Origin: a virus
Virus record (IMG/VR): IMGVR_UViG_3300034073_002739
Location: 1-54,439 of that record
Strand: one strand, 5' to 3'
DNA length: 54,439 bases
The first letter of the stretch is position 1. Each line of letters starts with the position of its first letter. Shown piece after piece: positions 1,612-12,675 of this stretch. The notes under the pieces were generated by a model that saw nothing but the letters and a program-made list of their open reading frames with translations, was not told where the DNA came from and made no database searches. The translations under genes were made by a program, and so were the position numbers.

Positions 1612-1809
1612 ATGATGGCATATAACGGATTAGACGTTGTTTCAGTCGATGTTCCGCTAATGCTTAGACTAATGGAATTTGCTCGTGAAGATGCTACATC
1701 CGACAAGGATTTGCATTTTGTAGCAGAACACTTAGTCAGGCTAATGCAGACAAATACTCTCCTTACCATGAAACACTATGATATGATAGTTGACAGGGAG
1801 GGTTTTTAA
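1612..1809 (+). CDS. Small orphan protein, paralogue of next gene
   Basis: Start chosen at ATG 1612 because GGAG at 1602-1605 lies six bases upstream; the ATG at 1606 touches that site. The 65-residue acidic, probably helical protein aligns end to end with the next product (pattern VPLMLRLMEFAR against VSPKLLKKLLEHAK; MKHYDMI against LDEFDVI). Its stop overlaps the next start as TAATG. No known family recognised. Confidence 0.7.
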   Translation: MMAYNGLDVVSVDVPLMLRLMEFAREDATSDKDLHFVAEHLVRLMQTNTLLTMKHYDMIVDREGF

Positions 1810-2012
1810 TGGGCGATAAGTATTATAAGTTCGTAGAGATAGAGGTTAGCCCTAAACTCTTAAAAAAGCTCTTAGAACACGCAAAAGATCCTAAAGTAAC
1901 GCAAGATCATATAAACTATATGATTGAAAACATGAAATTGTTAGCACGGCATGACGAGTGCTTAACCTTAGACGAGTTTGATGTAATCACAGAAAAATCC
2001 TTAGTCATGTGA
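1809..2012 (+). CDS. Small orphan protein, tandem paralogue
   Basis: A 67-residue protein with ribosome binding site GGGAGGG just upstream. It resembles the preceding product along most of its length, so the two look like a tandem duplication that has diverged. Predicted helical, no membrane segment, no known motif. A strong terminator at 2015-2056 ends the pair, making 1612-2012 a closed two-gene unit. Confidence 0.75.
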   Translation: MGDKYYKFVEIEVSPKLLKKLLEHAKDPKVTQDHINYMIENMKLLARHDECLTLDEFDVITEKSLVM

Positions 2013-2014
2013 TT

Positions 2015-2056
2015 AAGGTCGGCAAGAAGGCGTGCCGGCCTTTCTTGTTGTTTTTA
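2015..2056 (+). terminator. Rho-independent terminator
   Basis: Nine-pair stem AAGGTCGGC (2015-2023) with GCCGGCCTT (2034-2042), followed by a T-rich tract. Confidence 0.85.
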
Positions 2057-2090
2057 AACTCCAAAATAAAAATAATAACAGGAGAACAAA

Positions 2091-2849: not shown

Positions 2850-2866
2850 TCTCTAATTATTGGTTA

Positions 2867-2897
2867 GCCCCCTGTTCACAAGACACGGGGGCACTTT
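2867..2897 (+). terminator. Rho-independent terminator
   Basis: GCCCCC (2867-2872) pairs with GGGGGC (2887-2892), extended by TGT/ACA past a bulge, followed by ACTTTT. Confidence 0.8.
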
Positions 2898-2914
2898 TAC
2901 TAGGAGATTATTAT

Positions 2915-3385
2915 ATGTATCCGTATTATTTACCTCCTCCTTGGATATTTAATTCCTACTGTCCCCCACCTATTGGTGGACAAGGTATTAGCGATAATGA
3001 TGTTATCATAAATCATCAAGGTACTGGTATGCCGGGACCGCCCGGACCTCCAGGACCGCCCGGACCTCCAGGCCCTAGTGTTGCTTGTACAAACACTAGC
3101 CGTGTTATCTTCAAAGACTATGAGGCGGAACCAACAGACTACTACATCGGAGTTAATAGTAAGGGACCCGTTACTATTACACTACCAGAAAAATCAGATA
3201 AGTGTCAGACACTTATAATTAAGGCGGAGATGGGTCCGCCACTGGGAACTAGGAAGATTACAGTTACTACAGCAGATGGATCATTAATAGACGATAAAAC
3301 TGAAATAGTCTTACAGAATCCATATGAATCAATCATGTTAGTACGTAGTCAACATATATGGTCAATTATTTCAAACTATAAATAA
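2915..3385 (+). CDS. Collagen-like repeat protein
   Basis: A 156-residue protein. The N-terminus is Tyr/Pro-rich, residues about 40-54 are consecutive Gly-Pro-Pro triplets (collagen-like), and the C-terminal 90 residues look like a beta-sandwich (ITLPEKS, ITVTTADGS, WSIISNY). Collagen triplets trimerise and occur in phage fibre or decoration proteins. The C-terminal pattern resembles small beta domains of fibre tips. A surface fibre or decoration role is inference. It lies far from the tail genes. Confidence 0.75.
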   Translation: MYPYYLPPPWIFNSYCPPPIGGQGISDNDVIINHQGTGMPGPPGPPGPPGPPGPSVACTNTSRVIFKDYEAEPTDYYIGVNSKGPVTITLPEKSDKCQTLIIKAEMGPPLGTRKITVTTADGSLIDDKTEIVLQNPYESIMLVRSQHIWSIISNYK

Positions 3386-3392
3386 ATATATT

Positions 3393-3557
3393 ATGTTAAT
3401 CGTTACTAGAGAAACATTGACCCAAGAGCAGCAAGACATCCTAGATGCAGTAAACAATTTAATTGGTTGTAGCAAAGATGTTAGTGCCCATGGGTTTTAT
3501 CAATATTGTGAAGCTGAAAAAACCTTGGCAAATTTAATCTTGAATTTATCAAACTAA
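3393..3557 (+). CDS. Small hypothetical protein, 54 aa
   Basis: A short frame starting MLIVTRETLTQEQQ and ending NLILNLSN, predicted helical. It follows the collagen-like gene with a seven-base gap, and a promoter overlaps its 3' end. No ribosome binding site stands out; the coding case rests on the intact frame and phage-like codon use. Not recognised. Confidence 0.5.
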   Translation: MLIVTRETLTQEQQDILDAVNNLIGCSKDVSAHGFYQYCEAEKTLANLILNLSN

Positions 3558-3568
3558 TAGTGTATAAT
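3540..3568 (+). promoter_or_regulatory. Sigma-70 promoter TTGAAT-17-TATAAT
   Basis: -35 TTGAAT at 3540-3545, -10 TATAAT at 3563-3568, 17-nt spacer. It would drive the gene at 3600 and the tRNA-Lys group. Confidence 0.75.
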
Positions 3569-3599
3569 TATTACTTCGGCGTTGATTGAAAGAGAAAAA

Positions 3600-3794
3600 A
3601 TGACAAAACAAGAAGCCTTAATTATCTTACAAGCTCTACCAGACGATGCCGAAGTAACCCTTATTGTAGGCCAATGTAACTTGTGGCAAATTCCTGAATA
3701 TAATCCACACCTCTGGAAGGCTCCACAATGGCAAATGCCTCAATATGATCCAAACAATCTATATAGGATAACTTGTGAAAATAAAACCTCGTAA
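3600..3794 (+). CDS. Hypothetical protein, 64 aa
   Basis: Start set at ATG 3600, which lies at a suitable distance below the promoter at 3540-3568. The C-terminal half has three similar segments built on WQIPEYNP, WKAPQWQMP and QYDPNN, rich in Trp, Pro and Tyr. The N-terminus (TKQEALIILQALPDDAEVTL) resembles short phage proteins of unknown function. It overlaps the next small gene by 20 bases. Confidence 0.65.
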   Translation: MTKQEALIILQALPDDAEVTLIVGQCNLWQIPEYNPHLWKAPQWQMPQYDPNNLYRITCENKTS

Positions 3795-3891
3795 TCCCCT
3801 TGTGGCTCTAGCACATAAACGTCGTGCTGGATCGCACACCAAAACCCACAAGCAAATTCGTGGTAAACTAAATCGCAAACTGGATGCATAA
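3775..3891 (+). CDS. Small very basic protein, stop inside tRNA-Lys
   Basis: A GTG-started 38-residue protein beginning VKIKPRNPLVALAH, very rich in Lys/Arg/His. Short basic proteins starting KPRNPLV are, from memory, recurrent in tailed phages, function unknown; nucleic-acid binding is possible. Its last ten bases, including TAA 3889-3891, are the 5' acceptor region of tRNA-Lys (starts 3882), so processing of the tRNA would cut the mRNA before its stop codon. Confidence 0.7.
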   Translation: MKIKPRNPLVALAHKRRAGSHTKTHKQIRGKLNRKLDA

Positions 3892-3956
3892 CTCAACGGT
3901 AGAGTAACCGGCTTTTAACCGGTAAGCTGTGGGTTCGAATCCCCCTGCATCCACCA
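3882..3956 (+). tRNA. tRNA-Lys(TTT)
   Basis: Acceptor GGATGCA/TGCATCC, anticodon TTT in loop CTTTTAA, canonical T loop and encoded CCA at 3954-3956. The 5' end overlaps a CDS by ten bases, and the CCA begins a long trailer hairpin. Confidence 0.96.
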
Positions 3957-4016
3957 TATTAAAACATACTACTAAGAGTCCAGGTTCATAGCGTGGCATA
4001 GTGTGTTTCAATATGG
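3954..4016 (+). ncRNA. CCA-containing trailer hairpin after tRNA-Lys
   Basis: Bases 3954-3971 (starting with the tRNA CCA) pair with 3999-4016 (ending TGG) over 18 positions with one A/C mismatch and one T-G wobble; the loop is 27 nt. Same architecture as after tRNA-Leu(TAG) and tRNA-Tyr. It ends eight bases before tRNA-Ile(TAT). Confidence 0.65.
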
Positions 4017-4024
4017 AAAACTTT

Positions 4025-4118
4025 ACTAGCATAGTTTAATGGTAGAACTCCGAGCTTATACCTCGGCATGGCTCTAGATTGGGGCACGGTCTAGGTTCGA
4101 ATCCTAGTGCTAGTACCA
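4025..4118 (+). tRNA. tRNA-Ile(TAT) with long variable region
   Basis: Acceptor ACTAGCA/TGCTAGT, D stem GTTT/GAAC, anticodon arm CCGAG-CTTATAC-CTCGG giving TAT, T arm CTAGG-TTCGAAT-CCTAG and CCA at 4116-4118. The variable region is 24 nt instead of the usual 4-5 of tRNA-Ile and can form GCTC/GGGC. All other parts are canonical, so this is either a class II-shaped Ile tRNA or an insertion in the variable loop. Confidence 0.85.
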
Positions 4119-4122
4119 CTTA

Positions 4123-4191
4123 AGGCGAAAAGGGTAGCTCCCCTGTTAATTCTGCAAAATTAACTAGCCTATTAATACTCTTGCAGGAGTA
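4123..4191 (+). promoter_or_regulatory. Three-way junction leader and RBS hairpin before HNH gene
   Basis: AGGC (4123-4126) pairs with GCCT (4167-4170) and encloses two hairpins, GGG-TAGCT-CCC and a perfect GTTAATT/AATTAAC (4145-4151/4158-4164). Right after, TACTC (4176-4180) pairs with GAGTA (4187-4191), burying the GGAG binding site of the endonuclease gene. This suggests controlled translation. Confidence 0.5.
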
Positions 4192-4196
4192 CACAA

Positions 4197-4718
4197 ATGT
4201 ACACTAAACCTATTAAAATATTAGAAGGCCTAAAGGCCGGATACCAGCAATTTAGAGACCCTGAACATCCTCTAAGTTATTCTTCTGATGGGTCTGTTTA
4301 TTTACATAGACATATTGCTAGCCTAAAAATAGGCAGATGGTTAAAAAGTAATGAACACGTACACCACATAGATGGTAATAAATTAAATAATGATCCAGAT
4401 AATCTACAAGTATTAACTAATAAAGAACATGGATTATTACATAACTTAAGTAATACGTCTACAATATCATGCACAGTTTGTAAAACTTTATTTAAACAAA
4501 TAAATAAAACAGTAAAATACTGTAGTACAAAATGCTTTCATGAATCAACAGTAAAAAACAATGAAATAACCAAAGAATTATTAGATAGTCTTATACCTTA
4601 TAATTCTTGGGTTTCTTTAGGTAAAAAATTTAATTACTCAGATGTAGGAATAAAAAAGAGAGCAAAAGCACTTGGATGTGATTTATCTAAAATAAATTCC
4701 TACAAATATAAAATTTAG
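4197..4718 (+). CDS. HNH homing endonuclease
   Basis: A 173-residue protein. The HNH core HVHHIDGNKLNND lies at residues 54-66, followed by PDNLQVLTNKEH typical of phage HNH nucleases. A Cys pair set CTVC and CSTKC (about 92-113) could bind zinc, and the C-terminus resembles a DNA-binding helix-turn-helix (WVSLGKKFNYSDVGIKKRA). It stands free between tRNA genes, so it is probably a mobile nuclease that moved into the tRNA array. It is more AT-rich than its neighbours. Its TAG stop shares two bases with tRNA-Ser(GCT). Confidence 0.9.
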   Translation: MYTKPIKILEGLKAGYQQFRDPEHPLSYSSDGSVYLHRHIASLKIGRWLKSNEHVHHIDGNKLNNDPDNLQVLTNKEHGLLHNLSNTSTISCTVCKTLFKQINKTVKYCSTKCFHESTVKNNEITKELLDSLIPYNSWVSLGKKFNYSDVGIKKRAKALGCDLSKINSYKYKI

Positions 4719-4808
4719 TGAGTTGGATGAGAGGCTTAAATCAACGGTTTGCTAAACCGTCGTTTCAGGAAACTGGGACCGTGGGTTCGAATCCCACACT
4801 CACTGCCA
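4717..4808 (+). tRNA. tRNA-Ser(GCT)
   Basis: Class II tRNA: acceptor AGTGAGT/ACTCACT, anticodon GCT in loop TTGCTAA, long variable arm, discriminator G and CCA at 4806-4808. Its first two bases are the last two of the upstream TAG stop. The binding site of the next gene begins directly after the CCA. Confidence 0.96.
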
Positions 4809-4819
4809 CGGAGAATACT

Positions 4820-5119
4820 ATGGATCATGATAAACTAATAGCCGCTTTAGATAGCATAATTATTAAAGCTAAAAATGTTAAACGCGGAGATAGCGTTAGG
4901 TGGAACTCTAGTGGCGGTGTAGCTAGAGGCAAAGTTACCAAAGTAATTACAGACGGCGAGGAGCAAATCCCCAACTCTAGTTTTAAGATTACAGGCACAC
5001 CGGATGATCCAGGGGCTCTTATTCGTGTTTACCGTGAACAAGACGGCGAATACAAACCTACAGACACTATTGTAGGGCATAAGGTAAAAACTCTAACAAA
5101 AATTCCTGCACTGGATTAA
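4820..5119 (+). CDS. HVA1/DUF2945-like small domain protein
   Basis: Start ATG 4820 follows CGGAG placed right after the tRNA CCA; a longer upstream frame runs through the tRNA and is rejected. The 99-residue protein has the pattern of the hypervirulence-associated (DUF2945) Tudor-like domain: KRGDSVRWNSSGGVARGKVTKV, then PGALIRVYRE and VGHKVKTL. Function in phages is unknown. It forms a pair with the Cys-containing small protein that follows. Confidence 0.75.
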   Translation: MDHDKLIAALDSIIIKAKNVKRGDSVRWNSSGGVARGKVTKVITDGEEQIPNSSFKITGTPDDPGALIRVYREQDGEYKPTDTIVGHKVKTLTKIPALD

Positions 5120-5121
5120 TT

Positions 5122-5274
5122 ATGCCTTGCTATAAATGTTCAAATGGTAAGTACAAATACGGTCAAAAAGGCAATTGTCAGTTTGATACCCTAGCGGCGT
5201 GTAAGGCTGCTGAAGCAGCTATTCATGCCCGCGAAAACGAAAAGCCTAAAAAAGAAGAAAAACCTAAAAAATAA
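5122..5274 (+). CDS. Small Cys-containing protein, 50 aa
   Basis: Starts MPCYKCSNGKYKYG two bases after the preceding stop and has Cys at 3, 6, 19 and 27, suggesting a small zinc knuckle. The C-terminus is Lys/Glu/Pro-rich. The TAA stop ends exactly one base before tRNA-Glu. Short proteins of this shape are common in phages; function unknown. Confidence 0.7.
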   Translation: MPCYKCSNGKYKYGQKGNCQFDTLAACKAAEAAIHARENEKPKKEEKPKK

Positions 5275-5349
5275 GCACCCATCGACTATCGGTTAGGTCA
5301 ACACCCTTTCAAGGTGTAGAGACGGGTTCGACTCCCGTTGGGTGTACCA
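5275..5349 (+). tRNA. tRNA-Glu(TTC)
   Basis: Acceptor GCACCCA/TGGGTGT, anticodon TTC in loop CTTTCAA with stem ACACC/GGTGT, canonical T arm, CCA encoded. It abuts the preceding stop codon with no gap. Confidence 0.96.
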
Positions 5350-5354
5350 ACTAT

Positions 5355-5433
5355 CTGAGTGTAGGAAAGTCAGGCTCAATCCGTCTCGTTTGGGGCGAGA
5401 AGATCGCAGGTTCGAATCCTGCCACTCAGACCA
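5355..5433 (+). tRNA. tRNA-Pro(TGG)
   Basis: Acceptor CTGAGTG/CACTCAG, anticodon TGG in loop TTTGGGG with stem TCTCG/CGAGA, T loop TTCGAAT and CCA at 5431-5433. Confidence 0.94.
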
Positions 5434-5438
5434 ACAAA

Positions 5439-5514
5439 ACCACTGTAGTTCAATGGACAAGAATATCTTGCTACGAACGAGAAGATAAAGGTTCGATTCC
5501 TTTCAGTGGTTCCA
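5439..5514 (+). tRNA. tRNA-Arg(ACG)
   Basis: Acceptor ACCACTG/CAGTGGT, anticodon ACG in loop CTACGAA, T loop TTCGATT, discriminator T, CCA encoded. To read all CGN-type wobble codons it would need host TadA to convert A34 to inosine. Confidence 0.94.
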
Positions 5515-5527
5515 AGAACAATTAGGT

Positions 5528-5601
5528 GTGACTGAACCCAAAAAGTGAGGGAGCAGGCTGTGAACCTGTTTTGCTAGCGGGAGCGTTACCCGTCAGTCAC
5601 C
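5528..5601 (+). tRNA. tRNA-His(GTG), non-canonical D and T loops
   Basis: Stem lengths and spacings are those of a tRNA: acceptor GTGACTG/CAGTCAC, D stem CCC/GGG, anticodon arm GCAGG-CTGTGAA-CCTGT (GTG), seven-base variable loop, T stem GCGGG/CCCGT, C73. The T loop is AGCGTTA instead of TTCnAnn, and the D loop AAAAAGTGA lacks GG, so both partners of the usual D-T loop contact are missing. CCA is not encoded. The flanks CAATTAGG (5519-5526) and CCTAATTG (5602-5609) extend the acceptor by eight pairs. A G at -1, expected for His, is absent (T). Confidence 0.65.
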
Positions 5602-5608
5602 CCTAATT

Positions 5609-5684
5609 GCTGCTTTAGCTGATGTGGTCATAGCAACGGTCTGAAGAATCGTGGAACCCTGTTCGATCCGGGGAAGCAGCACCA
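5609..5684 (+). tRNA. tRNA-Phe(GAA)
   Basis: Acceptor GCTGCTT/AAGCAGC, anticodon GAA in loop CTGAAGA, T loop TTCGATC, CCA encoded at 5682-5684. Its first base is also the last base of the extended stem around tRNA-His. Confidence 0.94.
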
Positions 5685-5685
5685 C

Positions 5686-5760
5686 AGCCGATTAGCTCAG
5701 TGGTAGAGCAATGTTTTGATAAAGCAGAGGTCGCTGGTTCAATCCCAGCATCGGCTACCA
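5686..5760 (+). tRNA. tRNA-Ile(GAT)
   Basis: Acceptor AGCCGAT/ATCGGCT, D arm GCTC/GAGC, anticodon GAT in loop TTGATAA, T arm GCTGG-TTCAATC-CCAGC, CCA encoded. The 27-43 pair of the anticodon stem is mismatched. With tRNA-Ile(TAT) it covers all Ile codons. Confidence 0.93.
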
Positions 5761-5765
5761 GTTTC

Positions 5766-5870
5766 GGTTAGCTATAGAGCCTTAATACCTATAGTCGCAT
5801 TCTATACCGGCGTAAGAGTATAGCGTTAACCATAGCAGACGATAAGTGCTATGCCGGACAGGTAACCGGC
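5766..5870 (+). ncRNA. Structured intergenic RNA, three stems
   Basis: Between tRNA-Ile(GAT) and the next CDS: GGTTAGCTATA (5766-5776) pairs with TATAGC plus TAACC (5819-5831, two-base bulge) and encloses TATAG/CTATA (5790-5794/5802-5806). Then come ATAGCA/TGCTAT (5832-5837/5847-5852) and GCCGG/CCGGC (5853-5857/5866-5870). No canonical tRNA fits. It may be a leader of the gene at 5898 or a separate small RNA. Confidence 0.45.
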
Positions 5871-5897
5871 TCCTTACACACAACACACGAGGTTATA

Positions 5898-6137
5898 ATG
5901 ACAACTAAAAATCCCTATGAGATTCGTACTGAGCTTCTGCAACTTGCTCAGACTTATCTTGAAAACCAGTTTCAAGCTAACAAACAGTTTGCCGAACAAA
6001 GCTATCAACAAATGGTAGAGCTTGGCCAAGTTCAGCCAGAAGATTGGGCTAAACATATGCCCAAATTCTATGATTTCAAAGACATTTTGGAACGAGCCAA
6101 AGAACTCTACGGCTTTGTAAATAATGAAAGTCGCTGA
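5898..6137 (+). CDS. Hypothetical helical protein, 79 aa
   Basis: Start ATG 5898 follows CGAGG. The product is helical and Gln/Glu-rich (LLQLAQTYLENQF, EDWAKHMPKFY, ILERAKELYGFV). Short phage proteins with this pattern are, from memory, common and uncharacterised. Its end overlaps the next gene by 14 bases. Confidence 0.75.
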   Translation: MTTKNPYEIRTELLQLAQTYLENQFQANKQFAEQSYQQMVELGQVQPEDWAKHMPKFYDFKDILERAKELYGFVNNESR

Positions 6138-6282
6138 GCTATGGCAGCGCGTCTTGGAGTGTGTTCGTCCGTACACATTCGAGGATTATGTCAAAGAATA
6201 CGGCCCCCAAGATCACAAAGAACTAGAAGAACTTGAGCGTAAATGGTCGCAAAGTGGCGGCTGGTTTAACAAATCACAATAA
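6124..6282 (+). CDS. Small hypothetical protein, 52 aa
   Basis: ATG 6124 lies inside the end of the previous gene in another frame, suggesting translational coupling. Begins MKVAELWQRVLECVRPYTFEDYV, then acidic and helical, ending GGWFNKSQ. Not recognised. The stop is seven bases before tRNA-Met. Confidence 0.65.
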   Translation: MKVAELWQRVLECVRPYTFEDYVKEYGPQDHKELEELERKWSQSGGWFNKSQ

Positions 6283-6289
6283 CAACAGA

Positions 6290-6363
6290 CGCGCGGTAGA
6301 GAAAAGGCATCTTACCAGTCTCATAAGCTGGAGTTGAGGGTTCGAGTCCCTCCTGCGCAACCA
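6290..6363 (+). tRNA. tRNA-Met(CAT), initiator-like acceptor end
   Basis: Anticodon CAT in loop CTCATAA, T arm GAGGG-TTCGAGT-CCCTC, CCA at 6361-6363. The first acceptor pair is C6290/A6359, the C1-A72 mismatch that marks bacterial initiator tRNA and formyltransferase recognition. The anticodon stem CCAGT/GCTGG, however, lacks the three G-C pairs typical of initiators. It is thus a hybrid of initiator and elongator features. Confidence 0.85.
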
Positions 6364-6380
6364 ACACACAGGACACACAA

Positions 6381-6839
6381 ATGTCACAAACTATTAAAAA
6401 TTTGGAAGCAGCATTTGCTGGCGAGAGTCAGGCTTATGCTAAATATTTGTATTTTGGTCGTCTAGCAGATGAGCTGGGCCAATATAAAATTGCTGATCAC
6501 TTTTATCAAACCGCCGAACAAGAAATCAAACACGCCCATAGTCATCTTCAGCTCTTAATCGGCGAACCCGACATCCTAGAGTGCATTCAAATGGCCATTG
6601 ATGGTGAAACTTACGAATATACAGTAATGTATCCTGAAATGGAGCAACAAGCTATTCACGAAGGCAGAGAACTGGACGCTAAAGAAGCACACGAACAAGC
6701 ACGAGAGAGTAAGATTCATGCTGATGAATTTAGAGAACTACTTGAAATGGCAACAAAACGCTTTGGCGCACTGGCTCGAATTGAGCAAAAACATGCTGAA
6801 GGTTATCGTCGACTACAGGAGGCAGCAAATGAGGAGTGA
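6381..6839 (+). CDS. Rubrerythrin-like ferritin-domain protein
   Basis: A 152-residue four-helix protein with the di-iron ligand pattern of rubrerythrin: GESQAY near residue 15, EQEIKHAHSH near 46-55, and a second half with EMEQQAIHEGRELDAKEAHEQARE. Rubrerythrins reduce peroxide. The usual C-terminal rubredoxin domain is missing here and is encoded by the next, overlapping gene, so the pair looks like a split rubrerythrin. Expected in the cytoplasm, protecting against oxidative stress (inference). Confidence 0.88.
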   Translation: MSQTIKNLEAAFAGESQAYAKYLYFGRLADELGQYKIADHFYQTAEQEIKHAHSHLQLLIGEPDILECIQMAIDGETYEYTVMYPEMEQQAIHEGRELDAKEAHEQARESKIHADEFRELLEMATKRFGALARIEQKHAEGYRRLQEAANEE

Positions 6840-6963
6840 TATGGTTTGTGTAGTTTGTGGTCATGTTCATGACACTGATCTTGAAGGCGAATGGGGATTG
6901 CTTCCCGACGACTTTGAGTGTCCCGAGTGTGGCTGTGGTAAAGAAGATTACATGGCTATGTGA
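6829..6963 (+). CDS. Rubredoxin-like protein
   Basis: A 44-residue protein starting at ATG 6829 behind AGGAGG at 6817-6822; an internal ATG at 6841 is less well placed. It has CVVCG near residues 7-11 and CPECG at 31-35, the two iron-binding knuckles of rubredoxin, with the DFECPECG pattern typical of the domain. It overlaps the rubrerythrin gene by 11 bases, so the two are made together and probably act as electron donor and peroxidase. Confidence 0.85.
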   Translation: MRSDMVCVVCGHVHDTDLEGEWGLLPDDFECPECGCGKEDYMAM

Positions 6964-6970
6964 TCCCCTT

Positions 6971-7044
6971 CTCCTAGTGGTGTAATGGCAGCACGATAGT
7001 CTCCAAAACTATTAGTTGCGGTTCGAGTCCGTACTAGGAGGCCA
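6971..7044 (+). tRNA. tRNA-Trp(CCA)
   Basis: Acceptor CTCCTAG/CTAGGAG, anticodon CCA in loop CTCCAAA with stem ATAGT/ACTAT, discriminator G, encoded CCA. Confidence 0.95.
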
Positions 7045-7058
7045 CGAAAAATTTTGTC

Positions 7059-7087
7059 TTGACCCTAAACCTCAGCGATGCTATAAT
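7059..7087 (+). promoter_or_regulatory. Sigma-70 promoter TTGACC-17-TATAAT, extended -10
   Basis: TTGACC 7059-7064, TGC directly before TATAAT 7082-7087, 17-nt spacer. It serves the gene at 7118 and the tRNAs behind it. Confidence 0.85.
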
Positions 7088-7117
7088 ATTGTTTCTGTGA
7101 TTGATTTAGGAAACCAA

Positions 7118-7342
7118 ATGAACCACTGTACAGCCTTGCAGCAAGTTACTACTCCCTTGTTCTTGATTCCTGCCTATGGTCGCCGCTATCGCTCACGCGA
7201 AGCAGCCTTGCAAGACTGGCTAAAAGGCAAAGACTTTCAGATTCTTGGAGGGCCGTACTGTTCAATTCGTGACGTAAATCAAATGCGACAAGAATATGCT
7301 CGTATGTACATTCAGTACGAGTTTGGCACTGTTGAGGTTTAA
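7118..7342 (+). CDS. Hypothetical protein, 74 aa
   Basis: Start ATG 7118 follows TTAGGAAA and lies about 24 bases below the predicted transcription start; the longer upstream frame would run through promoter and tRNA. The product contains FLIPAYGRRYRSREAALQDW and KDFQILGGPYCSIRD, suggesting a small alpha-beta fold of a kind I have seen annotated as hypothetical in phages. No function assigned. Confidence 0.75.
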   Translation: MNHCTALQQVTTPLFLIPAYGRRYRSREAALQDWLKGKDFQILGGPYCSIRDVNQMRQEYARMYIQYEFGTVEV

Positions 7343-7349
7343 CCCATTT

Positions 7350-7433
7350 GCGACTGTGGCGTAATAGGTAGCCGCAAGGGACTTAAAATCCCTCGCCTTG
7401 TGCGTGCCGGTTCGAGTCCGGCCAGTCGCACCA
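7350..7433 (+). tRNA. tRNA-Leu(TAA)
   Basis: Class II tRNA: acceptor GCGACTG/CAGTCGC, anticodon TAA in loop CTTAAAA, long variable arm, CCA at 7431-7433. Confidence 0.96.
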
Positions 7434-7457
7434 TAACACTAGACCCGAAAGCGAAGC

Positions 7458-7552
7458 AGGCTTAGCTAGCCTGGCCTGACTATCGAGGCTAGACCTCTCC
7501 CACTACTGTTTAGCCACAGACCACTAGTAGGGATGCCCGCCACGATTGGCAT
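7458..7552 (+). promoter_or_regulatory. Structured leader with two exclusive hairpins
   Basis: CAGGCT (7458-7463) can pair with AGCCTG (7468-7473), or CTAGCCT (7466-7472) with AGGCTAG (7486-7492); both use 7468-7472, so only one can form. Downstream, TCCC-TACT (7498-7507, two-base bulge) pairs with AGTAGGGA (7526-7533), and ATGCC/GGCAT follow at 7533-7537/7548-7552. This resembles a switchable leader of the gene at 7562. Confidence 0.4.
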
Positions 7553-7561
7553 TAAACGGAT

Positions 7562-7783
7562 ATGATAGTGTCTAGTACTATGGAAACAACATATAAATAC
7601 CCACTTTACCCAACCCTTAACGCGTATTTGTTTAGTATGCTTGGGTCTCGAGAACTAGTAAATAAGTGGTACGAGTCACCTAATCGAGCATTTGATCTTA
7701 AACCGCCTATACAACTAATCGAATCAGGAGATGTTGGTAGAGCCCAAGTATACAAATATGTGTTAAATATTGCACACAGATAA
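7562..7783 (+). CDS. MbcA/ParS/Xre-type antitoxin C-terminal domain protein (DUF2384-like)
   Basis: A 73-residue protein matching the toxin-binding domain of Xre/MbcA/ParS antitoxins: LGSRELVNKWYESPNRAFDLKPP followed by IQLIESGDVGRAQVYKYVLNIAH. In complete systems this domain neutralises a RES/COG5654 toxin. No toxin gene is next to it and no helix-turn-helix precedes it, so it may be a solitary antitoxin or another adapter. ATG 7562 is weakly preceded by CGGA; ATG 7580 is an alternative. The stop abuts tRNA-Asn. Confidence 0.7.
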   Translation: MIVSSTMETTYKYPLYPTLNAYLFSMLGSRELVNKWYESPNRAFDLKPPIQLIESGDVGRAQVYKYVLNIAHR

Positions 7784-7859
7784 TGTCTAGTAGCTCAGTA
7801 GGTAGAGCAGGTGACTGTTAATCACCCTGTCGCTGGTTCGATCCCAGCCTAGACAGCCA
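7784..7859 (+). tRNA. tRNA-Asn(GTT)
   Basis: Acceptor TGTCTAG/CTAGACA, anticodon GTT in loop CTGTTAA with stem GGTGA/TCACC, discriminator G, encoded CCA. It abuts the stop of the preceding gene without a gap. Confidence 0.96.
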
Positions 7860-7861
7860 TG

Positions 7862-7936
7862 GCTGATATAACACAGAGGTAGTGTACTTTCTTGGTAAGA
7901 AAGAGGTCACAGGTTCGAATCCTGTTATCAGCACCA
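7862..7936 (+). tRNA. tRNA-Thr(GGT)
   Basis: Acceptor GCTGATA/TATCAGC, anticodon GGT in loop TTGGTAA with stem CTTTC/GAAAG, T loop TTCGAAT, CCA encoded. Two bases separate it from tRNA-Asn. Confidence 0.95.
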
Positions 7937-7942
7937 TAAATC

Positions 7943-8410
7943 ATGAAAAAATTTGACTTAGAACAAATCAAACAATTTATTCAACAGCAAAAACCAAGTA
8001 CCAAAATCTACCTTGGAGTAGATTCAGAACGTGTTTGCTCTAACAATAAATGGTACGCAGACTATCACATAGCCATTGTAGCCCATATTGAGGGCAAGCA
8101 CGGATGTAAAGTATTTGGGCAAATTGTTCGTGAGCGTGATTACGATAAGCATAAAAATAAACCTACTATGCGTTTAATGCAAGAGGTTTATAAGGCCGGA
8201 GAACTATTCTTGGCACTAGAAGATGTGCTTAAAGACAGAGATGTAGAAATTCACCTAGATATAAATCCCAGTGAAAAGTACGCAAGTAATCATGTTGTTA
8301 GTCAAGCTCTTGGATACATAAAAAGTACTTGCAATCTTCAAGCCAGAATCAAACCACAAGCCTTTGCAGCTACCGGAGCTGCTAATCGACTAAAACACTT
8401 ACTCAAATGA
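7943..8410 (+). CDS. RNase H-like YkuK/DUF458 family protein
   Basis: A 155-residue protein with the DUF458 (YkuK) pattern: IYLGVDSERV near residues 22-31, a central TMRLMQEVYKAGELFLAL, then VEIHLDINPSEKYASN and ARIKPQAFAATGAANR. The family has an RNase H-like fold with acidic residues at the expected positions (D27, D108 region). The substrate is not established. ATG 7943 lies six bases behind the tRNA-Thr CCA with no clear binding site. The gene overlaps the next by four bases. Confidence 0.8.
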   Translation: MKKFDLEQIKQFIQQQKPSTKIYLGVDSERVCSNNKWYADYHIAIVAHIEGKHGCKVFGQIVRERDYDKHKNKPTMRLMQEVYKAGELFLALEDVLKDRDVEIHLDINPSEKYASNHVVSQALGYIKSTCNLQARIKPQAFAATGAANRLKHLLK

Positions 8411-8628
8411 ACAAAGATCGTTTTGACCTTGAACAAGAAATTCTAGACTGCTGGCACATTGTTGATGACCTAGATGTTGTTATTAACAGCGAACAGCTCA
8501 ATCTTAATGACGATATGCTTAATATCTTGATAGGACTTAAGCAACTATACCAACTTAAGTTTGAGCGCACGTTTCAAACATTTGAGCAGCTTGTTTCAAA
8601 ACGTGAACTAGATAAACACATTCTATAA
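8407..8628 (+). CDS. Hypothetical helical protein, 73 aa
   Basis: Coupled to the YkuK-like gene by an ATGA overlap. The sequence (DLEQEILDCWHIVDDLDVVINSEQLNLNDDM) is acidic and helical. It resembles short phage proteins of unknown role; no domain assigned. Confidence 0.75.
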   Translation: MNKDRFDLEQEILDCWHIVDDLDVVINSEQLNLNDDMLNILIGLKQLYQLKFERTFQTFEQLVSKRELDKHIL

Positions 8629-8632
8629 TATA

Positions 8633-8706
8633 GCCCCGTTAGTTAAATGGCATAACACTTGACTTGTAATCATGAATTGTTAGTTCGATTCTAGCACGGG
8701 GCACCA
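8633..8706 (+). tRNA. tRNA-Thr(TGT)
   Basis: Acceptor GCCCCGT/ACGGGGC, anticodon TGT in loop CTTGTAA, encoded CCA at 8704-8706. The anticodon stem has a T-T mismatch at 28-42. CCATA (8704-8708) can pair weakly with TATGG (8717-8721), which contains the next start codon. Confidence 0.9.
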
Positions 8707-8717
8707 TAAGGACTTAT

Positions 8718-9113
8718 ATGGATACTCAAAAACAAGACTTAGTAGATACACTGGCTAAAGCTAGTGATGCTTGGAATGAGGCTATGGATGAGATTGAACA
8801 AGATAGTGAACAGTACTGGAATAGCTTGTCCAAAGAAGATCAACTAAAAGTGTTTTGTGCAGTATGCCGCCGCATCTATCAAGGTGATATTGTAGACAAA
8901 GGCACTTATCGCTATGTGCTCTATCAAGTATTTGGTTTTGGACCAGAAGCCTATGCCCCTGCACAACTAGCAGGGTATTTAGCCATTCATAATAGTATTT
9001 TTGACAACGAGCATGATTTTAAGCTACTAGCTGCATTTGCAAGTTTTCTAGGACAAACTACTGACGAAGTTGCTAAAAATGTCGACAGATTCTTACATAA
9101 ACAGTACCTATAA
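8718..9113 (+). CDS. Hypothetical protein, 131 aa
   Basis: AAGGA precedes ATG 8718. Acidic at the N-terminus (DEIEQDSEQYW), then a folded region with CAVCRRIYQGDIVDKGTYRYVLYQVFGFG and a helical C-terminus. It looks like a conserved phage protein, but I cannot name a function. It overlaps the DUF1289 gene by 35 bases. Confidence 0.75.
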   Translation: MDTQKQDLVDTLAKASDAWNEAMDEIEQDSEQYWNSLSKEDQLKVFCAVCRRIYQGDIVDKGTYRYVLYQVFGFGPEAYAPAQLAGYLAIHNSIFDNEHDFKLLAAFASFLGQTTDEVAKNVDRFLHKQYL

Positions 9114-9285
9114 GCCCGTAGCTAGCCCTTGCGTTTTTGTTTGCCGTTTAAATAGTGAAAATTATTGCGTAGGTTGTTTTCGACACCTAGATGAAATCAG
9201 AGATTGGTCACAAATGAACATTCAAGAACAGCGACGTATTATGCAAGACTTGGAGACTAGAAGTGACAAAATCTTCGGACCCTAA
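9079..9285 (+). CDS. DUF1289-like small Cys protein
   Basis: Start ATG 9079 within the upstream gene. The 68-residue product has the DUF1289 pattern SPCVFVCRLNSENYCVGCFRHLDEI followed by WSQMNIQEQRRIM. The family is a small Cys-rich domain of unknown function, often found fused or near redox proteins. Overlaps both neighbours. Confidence 0.8.
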   Translation: MSTDSYINSTYKPVASPCVFVCRLNSENYCVGCFRHLDEIRDWSQMNIQEQRRIMQDLETRSDKIFGP

Positions 9286-9388
9286 ATCATTAGCTTGGTC
9301 AGATCGTTTTCCTGCACTTAACCTATTCAACTACAATAGATTTTGGCATTGGCTAAAGGAATTTAATGGTGATAAAAAAGCTGGCTAG
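9263..9388 (+). CDS. Small hypothetical protein, 41 aa
   Basis: GTG 9263 is preceded by GGAG at 9252-9255. The product begins VTKSSDPKSLAWSDRFP and contains NYNRFWHWLKEF, aromatic and amphipathic. It overlaps the genes on either side. Too short to classify; accepted because of the binding site and the tight packing. Confidence 0.5.
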   Translation: MTKSSDPKSLAWSDRFPALNLFNYNRFWHWLKEFNGDKKAG

Positions 9389-9494
9389 CTATTTCATACT
9401 AGGCTTAATCCTTTTCGGATTAAGCCTAGTTATCATTCCCATTATAGGCATTGTTGTAGGCATTGTCTGGGACTATATAAAAGTGCTCTTTTAA
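9366..9494 (+). CDS. Small two-segment membrane protein, 42 aa
   Basis: Starts MVIKKLASYF and then runs almost entirely hydrophobic (LGLILFGLSLVIIPIIGIVVGIVW), one long or two short membrane segments. A holin-like or exclusion role is possible but unsupported. Its coding sequence contains a perfect 14-bp inverted repeat (9398-9411/9417-9430), and a second hairpin covers its stop. Confidence 0.45.
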   Translation: MVIKKLASYFILGLILFGLSLVIIPIIGIVVGIVWDYIKVLF

Positions 9495-9509
9495 GCCCTT
9501 TTATATAGT
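9398..9509 (+). repeat. Two perfect hairpins upstream of the tmRNA gene
   Basis: ACTAGGCTTAATCC (9398-9411) with its complement at 9417-9430, loop TTTTC; then ACTATATAAAAG (9472-9483) with CTTTTATATAGT (9498-9509). Neither has a good T tract, so they may be RNA-processing sites rather than terminators. Confidence 0.6.
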
Positions 9510-9514
9510 TGTAT

Positions 9515-9840
9515 GAAGTTAACCAAAAAGTGTCTTGGACGCGGCTATCGTATGCCGCCACCTCCACCAAAAGCATACTTCTCTGACCACAAGATGACTG
9601 GCATACCGGGCCGGACTTGGCAGAGTATAATCAACCCCAAGTATGCTTTTGATGGGGGTGACAGGATTCGACAGGGCAAAGAGTAGGGCGATGGACAACT
9701 CGACACAGAGAGTCGTAAAAAACTAAACAAAATAAACGCAAACGATGAAACGTGGGCATTAGCCGCCTAAACTCGGCTTAGGGTTTCCCCAGTTTTCCTC
9801 GTAACAGAAAAACTGGGACACAATGGCCTTTTAAGGCATT
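9515..9840 (+). ncRNA. ssrA: Permuted (two-piece) tmRNA
   Basis: The acceptor piece comes first: GGACGCGGC, a T arm GCGGC/GCCGC (9541-9558, eight-base loop), acceptor CACCTCC, A and CCA at 9567-9569. An intervening segment closes with a perfect 12-bp repeat (9569-9580/9639-9650). The coding piece starts GGGGGTG at 9654-9660, which pairs with CACCTCC, followed by ACAGGATTCGACAGGG as in tmRNA. The tag frame at 9738-9770 encodes ANDETWALAA then TAA. Hairpin 9788-9796/9809-9817 follows. Outer ends are approximate. It rescues stalled ribosomes and tags products for ClpXP-type proteases. Confidence 0.93.
9738..9770 (+). other. tmRNA tag reading frame
   Basis: Resume codon GCA at 9738, then codons for NDETWALAA and stop TAA 9768-9770, preceded by the usual A-rich stretch. 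The LAA end is the ClpX degron. It is one residue away from the tag ANDETYALAA that I recall for Neisseria-type betaproteobacteria. Confidence 0.93.
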
Positions 9841-9847
9841 TTAATTT
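9826..9847 (+). terminator. Terminator-like hairpin after tmRNA
   Basis: GCCTT (9826-9830) pairs with AAGGC (9833-9837), followed by ATTTTAATTT. Short stem; may define the 3' end of the tmRNA precursor. Confidence 0.45.
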
Positions 9848-9877
9848 AACTTTCTTGCTCTCATGAGGAGAACACCG

Positions 9878-10318
9878 ATGACACTAAAAGATATTAATAA
9901 ATACTTTCTAGGCTTTGACGAGGCTCAGGCTCGTATCAACCAGCTACACAATCACATGGTTTCTAAAGCAAATGTAAACTATCCACCTTATAATGTTCGT
10001 AAGGCCGGAGAACACCAATACTTGCTAGAACTTGCTGTTGCTGGTTTCCATGAAGATGAAATTACTGTAGAAACAACAAAAGGTGAGCTTATTATCTCTG
10101 CCAAAAAATCAGAGAGTGAAAGCGATGCAAACTACAGTACTTGGATTCATCAAGGCATTGCCTACAGAGGTTTTACACGTACCTTTTATCTAGACAATCA
10201 CTATGAGGTTCTACAGGCTGAGCTTAAAGATGGCTTGCTAAAGGTTTACCTAGGACTTCACGAAGATAAAAAGCCTAAACGCATTCCGATTGGCAATAAA
10301 CAACATATTGAGCTTTAG
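9878..10318 (+). CDS. Hsp20/alpha-crystallin small heat-shock protein
   Basis: Start ATG 9878 lies eight bases after GAGGAG; an upstream ATG at 9863 overlaps that site. The 146-residue protein has the Hsp20 pattern: YPPYNVRKAGEHQYLLELAVAGF, then ITVETTKGELIISAKK, RGFTRTFYL, and a GLLKVYL strand with the IPI tail motif (about residue 141). IbpA-like holdases bind unfolding proteins in the cytoplasm. Its TAG stop shares two bases with tRNA-Ser(TGA). Confidence 0.92.
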   Translation: MTLKDINKYFLGFDEAQARINQLHNHMVSKANVNYPPYNVRKAGEHQYLLELAVAGFHEDEITVETTKGELIISAKKSESESDANYSTWIHQGIAYRGFTRTFYLDNHYEVLQAELKDGLLKVYLGLHEDKKPKRIPIGNKQHIEL

Positions 10319-10406
10319 AAGCGTGGTCGAGTGGTTTAAGGCACCTGTCTTGAAAACAGACGATCCTTTACGGGGTCCGTGAGTTCGAATCTCACCGCTT
10401 CTGCCA
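10317..10406 (+). tRNA. tRNA-Ser(TGA)
   Basis: Class II tRNA: acceptor AGAAGCG/CGCTTCT, anticodon TGA in loop CTTGAAA, long variable arm, discriminator G, CCA encoded. The first two bases are shared with the TAG stop of the Hsp20 gene, as with tRNA-Ser(GCT). Confidence 0.95.
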
Positions 10407-10408
10407 AC

Positions 10409-10445
10409 AAAATCAGCAGCCCAAATAGGCTGCTGATTTTTACAC
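10409..10445 (+). terminator. Strong rho-independent terminator
   Basis: Perfect 13-bp stem AAAATCAGCAGCC (10409-10421) with 10428-10440, loop CAAATA, ending in a T run. It closes the tmRNA-Hsp20-tRNA-Ser unit. Confidence 0.93.
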
Positions 10446-10459
10446 TGCGCCAAACCAAC

Positions 10460-10573
10460 ATGACAAAAATTGCACCTAGTGGTTACTTGATGATTTTCTT
10501 TCCAAAACAATTTATCAAGTGGTCTATGGACGAACACGGATTCTGGGCTATAGACCTTATAACCTTAGATTAA
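10460..10573 (+). CDS. Possible small protein, 37 aa
   Basis: Frame MTKIAPSGYLMIFFPKQFI ending in FWAIDLITLD, between a terminator and tRNA-Gly. No binding site is seen before ATG 10460. Kept as a weak candidate only because it fills the gap exactly up to the tRNA. Confidence 0.3.
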   Translation: MTKIAPSGYLMIFFPKQFIKWSMDEHGFWAIDLITLD

Positions 10574-10577
10574 ACTA

Positions 10578-10654
10578 GCGGATATAGTGTTTAATGGTTA
10601 GCACGTAAGTCTTCCAAACTCAAAGTATCAGTTCGAATCTGATTATCCGCTCCA
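10578..10654 (+). tRNA. tRNA-Gly(TCC)
   Basis: Acceptor GCGGATA/TATCCGC, anticodon TCC in loop CTTCCAA, T loop TTCGAAT, CCA at 10652-10654. The final A is also the A of the next ATG. One anticodon-stem pair (28-42) is mismatched. Confidence 0.92.
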
Positions 10655-11223
10655 TGAAAAAAATTATACTCTCCTTATTTGACTATAGCGGCAATTGGCC
10701 TAAATATTATCGTGATAGTGGCAACTATGATGTATATCAAGTAGATATTAAACTTGGTTTAGATATACTTAGTATAGATCCTAGTGAATTACCACAACCC
10801 ATACATGGCATCTTAGCCGCTCCACCATGTACTGACTTTGCTAGCAGCGGAGCACAATACTGGCAGCAAAAAGACTTGGATGGGCGTACGGCGGCTAGCC
10901 TAGAGCTCGTAGATAAAACTCTAGAAATTATTGAGTATCACAAGCCCACATGGTGGGCGCTAGAAAATCCAGTAGGCAGACTATCAAAACTACGGCCCAA
11001 ACTAGGCAATCCTTGGTATTTTCAGCCACACTGGTTTGGTGATGCCTATACAAAGAAAACTGGATTGTGGGGCACATTTAACCGTGAACTACCTCAATCG
11101 CCAGTCGATCCCGATCCTAATTCGTGGATAATGAAATTAGGCGGTAAATCAGAACGAACAAAAGAATTGCGAAGCATGACTCCGCTTGGATTTGCTTTTG
11201 CATTTTACTTAGCCAATCCCTAG
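10654..11223 (+). CDS. Cytosine-C5 methyltransferase-like protein
   Basis: A 189-residue protein with a degenerate motif I (LSLFDYSGNW, residues 7-16), the catalytic PPC loop (AAPPCTDFASSG, Cys59) and ALENPVGR, resembling the ENV motif VI. It is much shorter than a typical C5 methyltransferase and shows no obvious target-recognition domain, so substrate and activity are uncertain; it could modify phage DNA or free nucleotides. ATG 10654 uses the last base of the tRNA-Gly CCA, and TAG 11221-11223 shares two bases with tRNA-Val; no binding site lies before it. Confidence 0.8.
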   Translation: MKKIILSLFDYSGNWPKYYRDSGNYDVYQVDIKLGLDILSIDPSELPQPIHGILAAPPCTDFASSGAQYWQQKDLDGRTAASLELVDKTLEIIEYHKPTWWALENPVGRLSKLRPKLGNPWYFQPHWFGDAYTKKTGLWGTFNRELPQSPVDPDPNSWIMKLGGKSERTKELRSMTPLGFAFAFYLANP

Positions 11224-11296
11224 TACCTTAGCTCAGTGGTAGAGCATTGCCTTTACACGGCAAGGGTCGTGGGTTCGAAACCCTCAGGTACTACCA
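11222..11296 (+). tRNA. tRNA-Val(TAC)
   Basis: Acceptor AGTACCT/AGGTACT, anticodon TAC in loop TTTACAC with stem TTGCC/GGCAA, T loop TTCGAAA, CCA encoded. Its first two bases belong to the stop of the methyltransferase-like gene. Confidence 0.96.
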
Positions 11297-11302
11297 AATA
11301 GT

Positions 11303-11590
11303 ATGCAACCAAAAGATACAGTACAAACTATCCATTTTAAAGGCTATACTAATAACAAGTGTGAATTCTTTCCGTGCCATACCGGTGTTAAAAAAGAATT
11401 TAATTGCTTGTTTTGTTACTGCCCCTTAGTATTCTTAAAATGCCCTGGCCCCTATAAAGTATTCCAAGATAAAAATGGTATAACTCGTAAAGATTGTTCA
11501 GACTGTATACTACCACATAACGGTATAGAACAATCGTGGCGATTTATTCAACAGTGGCTAGAAAAGCCAGAGCCTTGGGATTTAACTTAA
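11303..11590 (+). CDS. Cysteine-rich small domain protein (FPCH/CYCP type)
   Basis: A 95-residue protein with CEFFPCH, FNCLFCYCPLVF and DCSDCILPH, the signature of the cysteine-rich small domain that I recall from cobalamin-gene clusters. The Cys/His set suggests metal binding. No clear binding site; ATG 11303 lies six bases behind the tRNA-Val CCA. Function unknown. A possible link to the B12-dependent reductase encoded later is speculation. Confidence 0.78.
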   Translation: MQPKDTVQTIHFKGYTNNKCEFFPCHTGVKKEFNCLFCYCPLVFLKCPGPYKVFQDKNGITRKDCSDCILPHNGIEQSWRFIQQWLEKPEPWDLT

Positions 11591-11608
11591 AGATTAAAAA
11601 ATATTAAC

Positions 11609-11637
11609 TTGAATTGGCTTGGTATCTGTGATATAAT
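11609..11637 (+). promoter_or_regulatory. Sigma-70 promoter TTGAAT-17-TATAAT in hairpin loop
   Basis: TTGAAT 11609-11614, TGA before TATAAT 11632-11637, 17-nt spacer. The -10 lies between the arms of a 13-bp inverted repeat (11616-11628/11650-11662). It drives the phosphoesterase gene. Confidence 0.85.
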
Positions 11638-11675
11638 ATTATTTTATTGCAGATACCAAGCCTTTTCTATTTTAG
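11616..11675 (+). terminator. Terminator-like 13-bp hairpin around a promoter
   Basis: GGCTTGGTATCTG (11616-11628) pairs perfectly with 11650-11662; the 21-base loop holds TATAAT, and TTTTCTATTTT follows. It may end upstream transcription, act as an operator, or both. Confidence 0.6.
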
Positions 11676-11683
11676 GCATAAAA

Positions 11684-12238
11684 ATGAATATCTTTTTTTG
11701 TTCAGACCATCATCTCTATCATCAAAACATTCTTAAGTTTACCAGAGATGATAACACTCCGCTCAGAGTATTTCGTGATCTAGAGCATATGCACGAGCAT
11801 ATTATTGAGCAACACAATCGAGTAGTTATGCCTAAAGATAAAGTATATTTTTTAGGCGATGTTACCATGAGTCGTAATCTTAAAGGCTTAGATATTCTCA
11901 ACAGATTTAACGGCACAAAAATTTTAGTCAGAGGCAATCACGACGAATGTAAGCTATCACAGTATGCAGAATTTTTTGAAGATGTTCGAGGGGTTACTCA
12001 CAGATACGGCTTTGTAATGACTCATGTGCCTATTCATCCCGATAGCCTAGAGCGTTGGGGATTTAACTTACATGGGCATTTACACTACAGGCGAGTTTTA
12101 TTACCAAACGGACACCCAGACCCCAGATATATAAATGTAAGCATGGAGTGTTTAAACGACTATACTCCTATAAGTCTAGATGAAATTAATAAAAGGATTA
12201 AAGATGCAGAACAATGCTTGGCAGTGGCCAAAGAGTGA
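11684..12238 (+). CDS. Calcineurin-like metallophosphoesterase
   Basis: Start ATG 11684 lies downstream of the promoter; the longer frame from 11609 covers it. The 184-residue enzyme has the full set of metal motifs: SDHHLYH (7-13), FLGDV, RGNHDE, MTHVPIH and GHLH. This is the form of small phage and bacterial phosphoesterases that hydrolyse phosphodiesters or nucleotides; the substrate is unknown. The 3' end overlaps the membrane-protein gene by 35 bases. Confidence 0.9.
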   Translation: MNIFFCSDHHLYHQNILKFTRDDNTPLRVFRDLEHMHEHIIEQHNRVVMPKDKVYFLGDVTMSRNLKGLDILNRFNGTKILVRGNHDECKLSQYAEFFEDVRGVTHRYGFVMTHVPIHPDSLERWGFNLHGHLHYRRVLLPNGHPDPRYINVSMECLNDYTPISLDEINKRIKDAEQCLAVAKE

Positions 12239-12392
12239 GTATACCCTGACTAATACTAGTACTGAAAACACAGCGCAAGTGCCAACCACAAAACAAACCA
12301 TTATTACATTAAAAGATCCAAGCTGGATTATTGCTGTATTTATTGGTTTGTTACTATTTATTCCACTTATTTATGCTGCATTTTACTTATAA
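12204..12392 (+). CDS. Small C-terminally anchored membrane protein
   Basis: ATG 12204 with AGGATT upstream, nested in the end of the phosphoesterase gene. Residues 1-40 are polar; residues about 42-62 (WIIAVFIGLLLFIPLIYAAF) form one membrane segment at the C-terminus. Function unknown. Confidence 0.7.
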   Translation: MQNNAWQWPKSEYTLTNTSTENTAQVPTTKQTIITLKDPSWIIAVFIGLLLFIPLIYAAFYL

Positions 12393-12394
12393 AT

Positions 12395-12589
12395 ATGATT
12401 ACAGTAGATAATACTAATATTCTTCCATGCCCATTTTGTGGTAATGACCATATAGCTCATATTATAGTGCCACAATATGACAAGCCCGGATTTCCGCCCG
12501 ATAGTTGGATTGTATGTAATAGCTGCGGCGTAGAAGTTCGTGCAAATAATACTACTAGTGCTTTAGATTTGTGGAATAAAAGACCCTAA
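12395..12589 (+). CDS. Lar-like zinc-ribbon protein
   Basis: A 64-residue protein with LPCPFCGNDH near residue 10 and VCNSCGVEV near 41, ending ALDLWNKRP. This is the Lar (restriction alleviation) family pattern of two CxxC knuckles plus a terminal W-N-R. Rac-prophage Lar modulates EcoKI; in other phages the family often has no proven role. It directly follows the membrane protein gene. Confidence 0.8.
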   Translation: MITVDNTNILPCPFCGNDHIAHIIVPQYDKPGFPPDSWIVCNSCGVEVRANNTTSALDLWNKRP

Positions 12590-12597
12590 AGTATAGC

Positions 12598-12675
12598 GGG
12601 CCTCTAGCTCACGGTGGTTAGAGCATTCGACTCATAATCGACAGGTACTGGGTTCGACTCCCAGGGGGCCCACCA
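12598..12675 (+). tRNA. tRNA with CAT anticodon (Ile2 or elongator Met)
   Basis: Acceptor GGGCCTC/GGGGCCC, anticodon CAT in loop CTCATAA, T arm CTGGG-TTCGACT-CCCAG, CCA encoded. The CGACTCATAATCG arm resembles tRNA-Ile2, whose C34 is changed to lysidine by TilS, more than Met; the class cannot be settled by eye. Confidence 0.9.

Follow-up and report, generated by a model that had tools for sequence, protein, structure and literature searches.

A circularly permuted, betaproteobacterial-type tmRNA gene in the tRNA cluster of a putative T5-like phage

The window analyzed here, the whole 54,439-nucleotide stretch of IMG/VR virus record IMGVR_UViG_3300034073_002739, carries a tmRNA gene of circularly permuted, two-piece form and betaproteobacterial type at positions 9507–9844. 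A whole-window Rfam scan returned two full-length matches: RF01850 (beta_tmRNA) at 9440–9844 with 107.4 bits (E = 8.8e-32, gathering cut-off 84), and RF04321 (tmRNA_permuted), a model built from three bacterial permuted groups (PMC11915505), at 9507–9770 with 107.1 bits (E = 5.6e-20, gathering cut-off 47). Full-length matches with E-values of this order exclude chance. Judging from the sequence comparisons described below, we consider it very probable that this is a working phage tmRNA set within the 21-tRNA translation cluster of a T5-like phage.

The first-pass annotation of this DNA had proposed a two-piece permuted tmRNA on a phage, and the two model matches together with the individual parts (Table 1) bear this out. 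The acceptor end with its CCA does precede the 5′ end, GGGGGTG at 9654–9660, and the tag frame ANDETWALAA runs from resume codon GCA at 9738 to the TAA stop at 9768–9770. The acceptor stem GGGGGUG/CACCUCC is fully paired over its 7 bp (9654–9660 with 9559–9565), including the alanine-identity pair G3-U70. The lack of any covariance-model hit to the permuted form, which the annotation had named as evidence against itself, is contradicted by both models scoring above cut-off. A one-piece tmRNA, the other counter-evidence named there, was rejected, as the sequence downstream of 9770 contains neither a T arm nor a CCA, and the standard tmRNA model RF00023 gave no reported match. The perfect 12-bp repeat said to close the segment joining the two halves is present (9569–9580 with 9639–9650) but is inverted, and only 11 bp of it lie in the intervening spacer (IVS) proper because the repeat starts on the A of CCA. 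The 84-nt IVS is predicted to be removed in the mature RNA, and in the modeled fold of the precursor its stem is stacked on the acceptor stem. On inspection of the sequence, no promoter or terminator pattern stood out at the gene.

Table 1. Features of the permuted tmRNA gene and its surroundings, in window coordinates.
Feature	Coordinates	Strand	Basis or remark
Joining helix, 5′ strand AGUUGU	9507–9512	+	Pairs with 9695–9700; Rfam alignment, perfect 6-bp complement
57-codon ORF through T arm, CCA and IVS (MKLTKKCLGRGYRMPPPPPKAYFSDHKMTGIPGRTWQSIINPKYAFDGGDRIRQGKE)	9513–9686	+	Weak match (E 0.01) to Aeromonas phage D6 protein QDJ97340
T arm, stem GCGGC/GCCGC, 8-nt loop TATCGTAT at 9546–9553	9541–9558	+	Sequence, Rfam
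3′ acceptor strand CACCUCC (9559–9565), discriminator A 9566 (A73), encoded CCA (9567–9569)	9559–9569	+	
IVS, 84 nt	9570–9653	+	Closing stem 9569–9580/9639–9650, then GAT before the 5′ end
5′ end of mRNA-like piece: acceptor strand GGGGGUG and D-loop ACAGGAUUCGAC	9654–9672	+	D-loop 9661–9672
Joining helix, 3′ strand ACAACU	9695–9700	+	Rfam alignment, complement of 9507–9512
Tag reading frame: GCA resume codon, ANDETWALAA, TAA	9738–9770	+	Aligned to tag region of RF01850 and RF04321
3′ part: hairpin CCCAGTTTT/AAAAACTGGG and last hairpin ATGGCC-TTTT-AAGGCAT	9788–9844	+	Aligned to 3′ stems of RF01850
Hsp20-type small heat shock protein gene, downstream neighbor	9863–10318	+	PHROG 432, E 2.4e-33

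From its gene set we infer that the window belongs to a T5-like phage: it encodes a DnaB-type helicase, primase, DNA polymerase, NAD ligase and D5-like regulator, along with SbcC, SbcD, an exonuclease, ribonucleotide reductase, PhoH and tail proteins. Bacterial contamination was rejected, as the contig bears these phage genes and its syntenic relatives lie on large phage contigs. Positions 1–12675 hold one cluster of 21 tRNA genes (ARAGORN calls) with small ORFs between them, among which are an HNH endonuclease (4197–4718), a rubrerythrin-like protein (6381–6839) and an RNase H-like protein (7943–8410). The tmRNA gene sits inside this cluster, immediately upstream of hsp20. A short ORF directly upstream of the tmRNA (9366–9494) encodes a 42-residue membrane peptide, MVIKKLASYFILGLILFGLSLVIIPIIGIVVGIVWDYIKVLF.

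We used the window helicase to fetch 80 related viral loci. RF04321 was matched above cut-off in 25 of 48 related contigs, including five of about 97–99 kb; other large contigs had no match. In sister T5-like phages (L059, L019 and others), the tmRNA occupies an equivalent position ahead of the same hsp20, the downstream gene beginning with the same ATGACACTAAAAGAT as in the window, and 3′ hairpins like those of the window occur in sister phages as well. These closest relatives carry the tag ANDETFALAA and the T-loop TTCGACT. No smpB was detected in the window (possibly a fragment) or in 21 related phage contigs, in a search whose controls were detected in 10 of 14 known genomes, suggesting that the SmpB partner would be that of the host.

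The annotation had read the tag, which has Trp where a betaproteobacterial tag has Tyr, as a hint at the host. An exact degenerate scan of viral contigs for ANDET-x-ALAA yielded 53 loci, all with Phe or Tyr, and the exact ANDETWALAA pattern matched no other IMG/VR contig searched and nothing in the GTDB species genome collection searched. The Trp form of the tag is new here, in no bacterial genome searched by exact scan; it consequently points to no sequenced host, and we rejected host identification from it. A tag unlike all of the Phe and Tyr tags found could also belong to a modified tmRNA whose benefit to the phage lies not in supporting rescue but in competition with, or redirection of, host trans-translation, as would be the case if host proteases read the tag differently. 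A tmRNA-like RNA of phage DS6A that has no tag frame is reported to inhibit host tmRNA when expressed in E. coli (PMC11915505). The window tag, however, has ordinary length and the usual ALAA end, and sister phages retain ordinary Phe tags, so that we regard such redirection as unlikely.

Comparison with relatives showed how the stems of the tmRNA have changed. Relative to its closest relative, L059, the window gene differs on both sides at acceptor pairs 4, 5 and 6 and at T-stem pair 5, while G3-U70 is kept; in the sister-phage T arm (GCGGG TTCGACT CCCGC), the innermost stem pair is changed on both sides compared to the window. The joining helix is likewise altered on both sides in relatives, to GATCGT/ACGATC in L030 and TGCTGT/ACAGCA in L204. 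In a wider census of phage copies, acceptor pairing, T-stem pairing and G3-U70 were among the search criteria, so the conservation of the acceptor and T stems in that set is partly circular. The IVS closing stem was not among these criteria, and in 89 distinct stem-class phage copies, which are related sequences and not independent events, it was paired in 90.8% of cells at its own register vs. 37–54% when one arm was slid by 1–3 bases. As an observation in its own right, two copies (L027 and L030) share the spacer and the tag half and differ between the 5′ end and the tag, as if recombined within the gene.

The usual T-loop carries UUCRA, a motif whose exact form is typical of, and not defining for, docking with the D-loop. 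The window T-loop TATCGTAT has 8 nt and is not UUCRA. It reads U-A-(U55 C56)-G-U-A-U on an intact T stem, and U55 and C56 are kept, as are G18 and the GG of the D-loop, which is itself 1 nt shorter than in sister phages. The same combination, a T-loop one base longer and a D-loop one base shorter, recurs in the otherwise different L192, where this loop type is accompanied by another stem and another tag in a gene scoring 124.5 bits against RF01850. This 8-nt T-loop with a shortened D-loop is a new elbow variation, common to the window and this one other phage. Among the matches listed, 148 distinct but related (hence not independent) phage copies showed covariation of positions 55 and 18 without exception, with U55-G18 in 95/95 and G55-A18 in 53/53, under a search pattern that permitted A or G in the D-loop and left the T-loop free except in length. 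The odd T-loop of the window conforms to this covariation and is explained by it, since the tertiary 18/55 rule is still obeyed.

ARAGORN's permuted model, which had been suggested as a check, did not recover the gene: the program called the 21 tRNA genes in the window and missed the tmRNA. It also misses L192 and L014, which have odd T-loops too, and L292, which has a very long IVS, and it finds the canonical relatives; surveys based on ARAGORN therefore undercount phage permuted tmRNAs. Together with an 8-nt T-loop that lacks UUCRA and a Trp tag for which an exact tag scan found no second instance, this failure might suggest a decaying tmRNA, formerly functional, whose elbow and tag are eroding in this phage and which has become inactive. 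Several features run counter to decay: the changes in the acceptor stem, T stem and IVS stem are compensatory, the D-loop has shortened along with the longer T-loop as in L192 with the 18/55 rule obeyed, the tag frame is intact up to its ALAA end, and the RF04321 score is more than twice the permuted-family cut-off. Decay thus appears very unlikely to us.

For a working tmRNA, the steps of processing, charging and tagging, and the benefit to the phage, can be drawn from known tmRNA biology. A single transcript would fold with the acceptor stem stacked on the IVS stem, cleavage by host RNase P would fall just 5′ of G9654, and trimming back to the CCA at 9569 would be left to a second host nuclease, so that the IVS is lost. 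The two pieces would be held together by the acceptor stem and the 9507–9512/9695–9700 helix. Host alanyl-tRNA synthetase would then charge the tmRNA through G3-U70, host SmpB would deliver it to ribosomes that have stalled on broken mRNA in the infected cell, and the appended ANDETWALAA would mark the product for destruction by host proteases. The window tmRNA would most likely borrow both SmpB and the processing enzymes of the host. The window gene indicates that T5-like phages maintain a ribosome-rescue RNA of their own along with tRNAs.

The window gene is also crossed by a 57-codon ORF (Table 1). An ATG lies within the odd T-loop, and the spacer peptide encoded from there (9552–9686) resembles 25 residues of QDJ97340 from Aeromonas phage D6 (E 0.01). 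If the precursor were also an mRNA, this ORF, or the part of it beginning at ATG 9552, would encode a phage peptide. The 25-residue stretch is 56% identical to the Aeromonas jumbo-phage protein (tblastn against a phage collection, E 0.01), and a conserved IVS ORF is present in 28 other phage permuted tmRNAs. On the other side, the window has an 11–12 bp closing stem and no EW motif (see below), which places it in the stem-closed class and outside the ORF class; a frame of this length is expected by chance in about one third of such spacers (estimated from 3/64 stops per codon); the frame is not conserved among the sister phages; and some of the similarity (YF, YAF) is encoded by the palindromic stem arms themselves. 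An alignment-based search with the IVS peptide gave no confirmed viral relative, and the only two matches from a motif scan of viral contigs were in unrelated frames. Because the stem is present, such frames are common, the frame is not kept in sisters and no further relative was found, we judge that the ORF is probably due to chance and that a coding role for the precursor is improbable. The window IVS was rejected as a coding region.

In other phages, the spacer does appear to be coding. In six loci (L007, L008, L051, L017, L139 and L140), an ORF with an ATG start extends across the joining helix, T arm, CCA and spacer into the 5′ half, and its spacer part is conserved as PRNLFYTEREWSRLVGWG. 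We defined an EW-ORF class by the absence of an IVS closing stem and by a conserved ORF that spans the T arm, CCA and IVS and encodes the motif [WYF]YT..EWSR..GWG..P. A motif search of viral contigs yielded 52 loci, and the motif lay inside a permuted tmRNA in nearly all of the 46 examined. RF04321 matched all 26 of the EW records tested, 25 of them above cut-off. Loci of this class are L007, L008, L017, L051, L139, L140, L168, L220, L271, L272 and L283–L308, and they span both beta-type and alpha-type tmRNAs.

Across 28 distinct EW sequences, an upstream ATG, 33 nt ahead of the T-arm GAC, or GTG, 39 nt ahead of it, began an uninterrupted frame, and spacer lengths, which ranged from 79 to 277 nt, shared one residue modulo 3 within each 5′-half frame group. 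Nine of the 28 had no ATG, GTG or TTG between the CCA and the motif, implying that translation would have to begin further upstream and cross the tRNA-like domain. In 11 disjoint pairs, nonsynonymous change in the spacer was 0.42 times synonymous change per site (pS 0.31, pN 0.13), with one low-change pair opposite. EW spacers showed effectively no closing stem (mean 3.4 bp vs. 3.7 bp when shuffled), in contrast to the other class, which includes the window (9.7 bp vs. 4.3 bp). Searches of Pfam and PHROG with the EW protein gave no match, its AlphaFold model was unusable (pLDDT 46), no isolate phage was found to carry the motif protein, and the sole hit in a bacterial genome spanned 12 residues and was not convincing. 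A literature search of titles and abstracts for ORFs in tmRNA spacers found nothing pertinent.

Together, these patterns make it probable that the EW-class primary transcript is dual-coding, being either cut into a two-piece tmRNA or translated from the upstream ATG or GTG through the tRNA-like domain, CCA and spacer into a conserved small protein. A given transcript most likely serves as tmRNA precursor or as mRNA, not as both at once. If dual use is true, tmRNA processing and translation of the same molecule would be mutually exclusive, suggesting an inherent switch coupled to the state of ribosome rescue in the infected cell. The conserved spacer-ORF class, comprising 28 distinct phage permuted tmRNAs outside the window, appears to be new here.

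Three further ORFs were observed. On L142, a free-standing small ORF at 875–1024 (MSDGRWWYTESEWSRLVGWGKLPEK...) is homologous to the EW spacer peptide; the contig has no tmRNA, and the ORF lies downstream of a gene that, in our reading, resembles an M15-type peptidase. At L141 (3076–3192), a hydrophobic peptide of 39 residues (MKYIKLFFRCVWVFVLLLAASIILIPLFAITFGVVKGLF) is encoded by a complete ORF within the spacer of a stem-closed permuted tmRNA; a likeness of the membrane peptide at 9366–9494 of the window to this peptide was unsupported by tblastn. On the minus strand of L021 (9216–9374), an open frame (MTNITEKEIERLKKVEKWFHENSHFFNLEQCLGLDIQCSLYNLVKE...) in a 161-nt spacer extends into the 5′ half.

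The window tmRNA is not new in kind, as two-piece phage tmRNAs are already known (PMC9004378), and the earlier suggestion that the permuted arrangement may be new or rare in phages was mistaken or overstated. In a survey of 18,146 phage genomes, 402 carried a tmRNA, and the 133 unique structures included 53 of the two-piece form, 50 of these aquatic (Buchholz et al., 2022, PMC9004378); the tmRNA database holds 79 phage sequences of all forms (PMC11915505). Our census adds at least about 140 further distinct phage permuted copies, a set that makes testable both the 18/55 elbow covariation and the possibility of tmRNA precursors doubling as mRNA for a conserved small phage protein. Permuted tmRNA genes are also unannotated in the records of three isolate phages, Alcaligenes phage vB_Af_QDWS595 (L002, OK149171), Synechococcus phage BUCT-ZZ01 (L003, ON615601) and Xanthomonas phage X1 (L004, OQ427096), which score 111, 112 and 77 bits against RF04321, respectively. 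Like the window, all three match this model; unlike the window, they are called as permuted tmRNAs by ARAGORN and have other tags, and only 17–29% of the window gene aligns with theirs, at 72–78% identity.

Compared with bacterial beta-type permuted tmRNA (RF01850/RF04321), the window gene has the same order of parts, G3-U70 acceptor stem, IVS, joining helix, resume codon and tag frame, and a full-length match to the models; it differs in its 8-nt T-loop, shortened D-loop, 84-nt IVS and Trp in the tag, and in being borne by a phage. With the two-piece tmRNAs of aquatic phages, such as that carried by the methylophage Melnitz and the 53 cases of the survey (Buchholz et al., 2022, PMC9004378), it shares a complete permuted ssrA and a proposed role in the upkeep of hijacked translation. 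While the Melnitz gene is of the alphaproteobacterial (SAR11) type and is linked to a glutamine riboswitch, that of the window is of the beta type and resides in the tRNA cluster of a putative T5-like phage.
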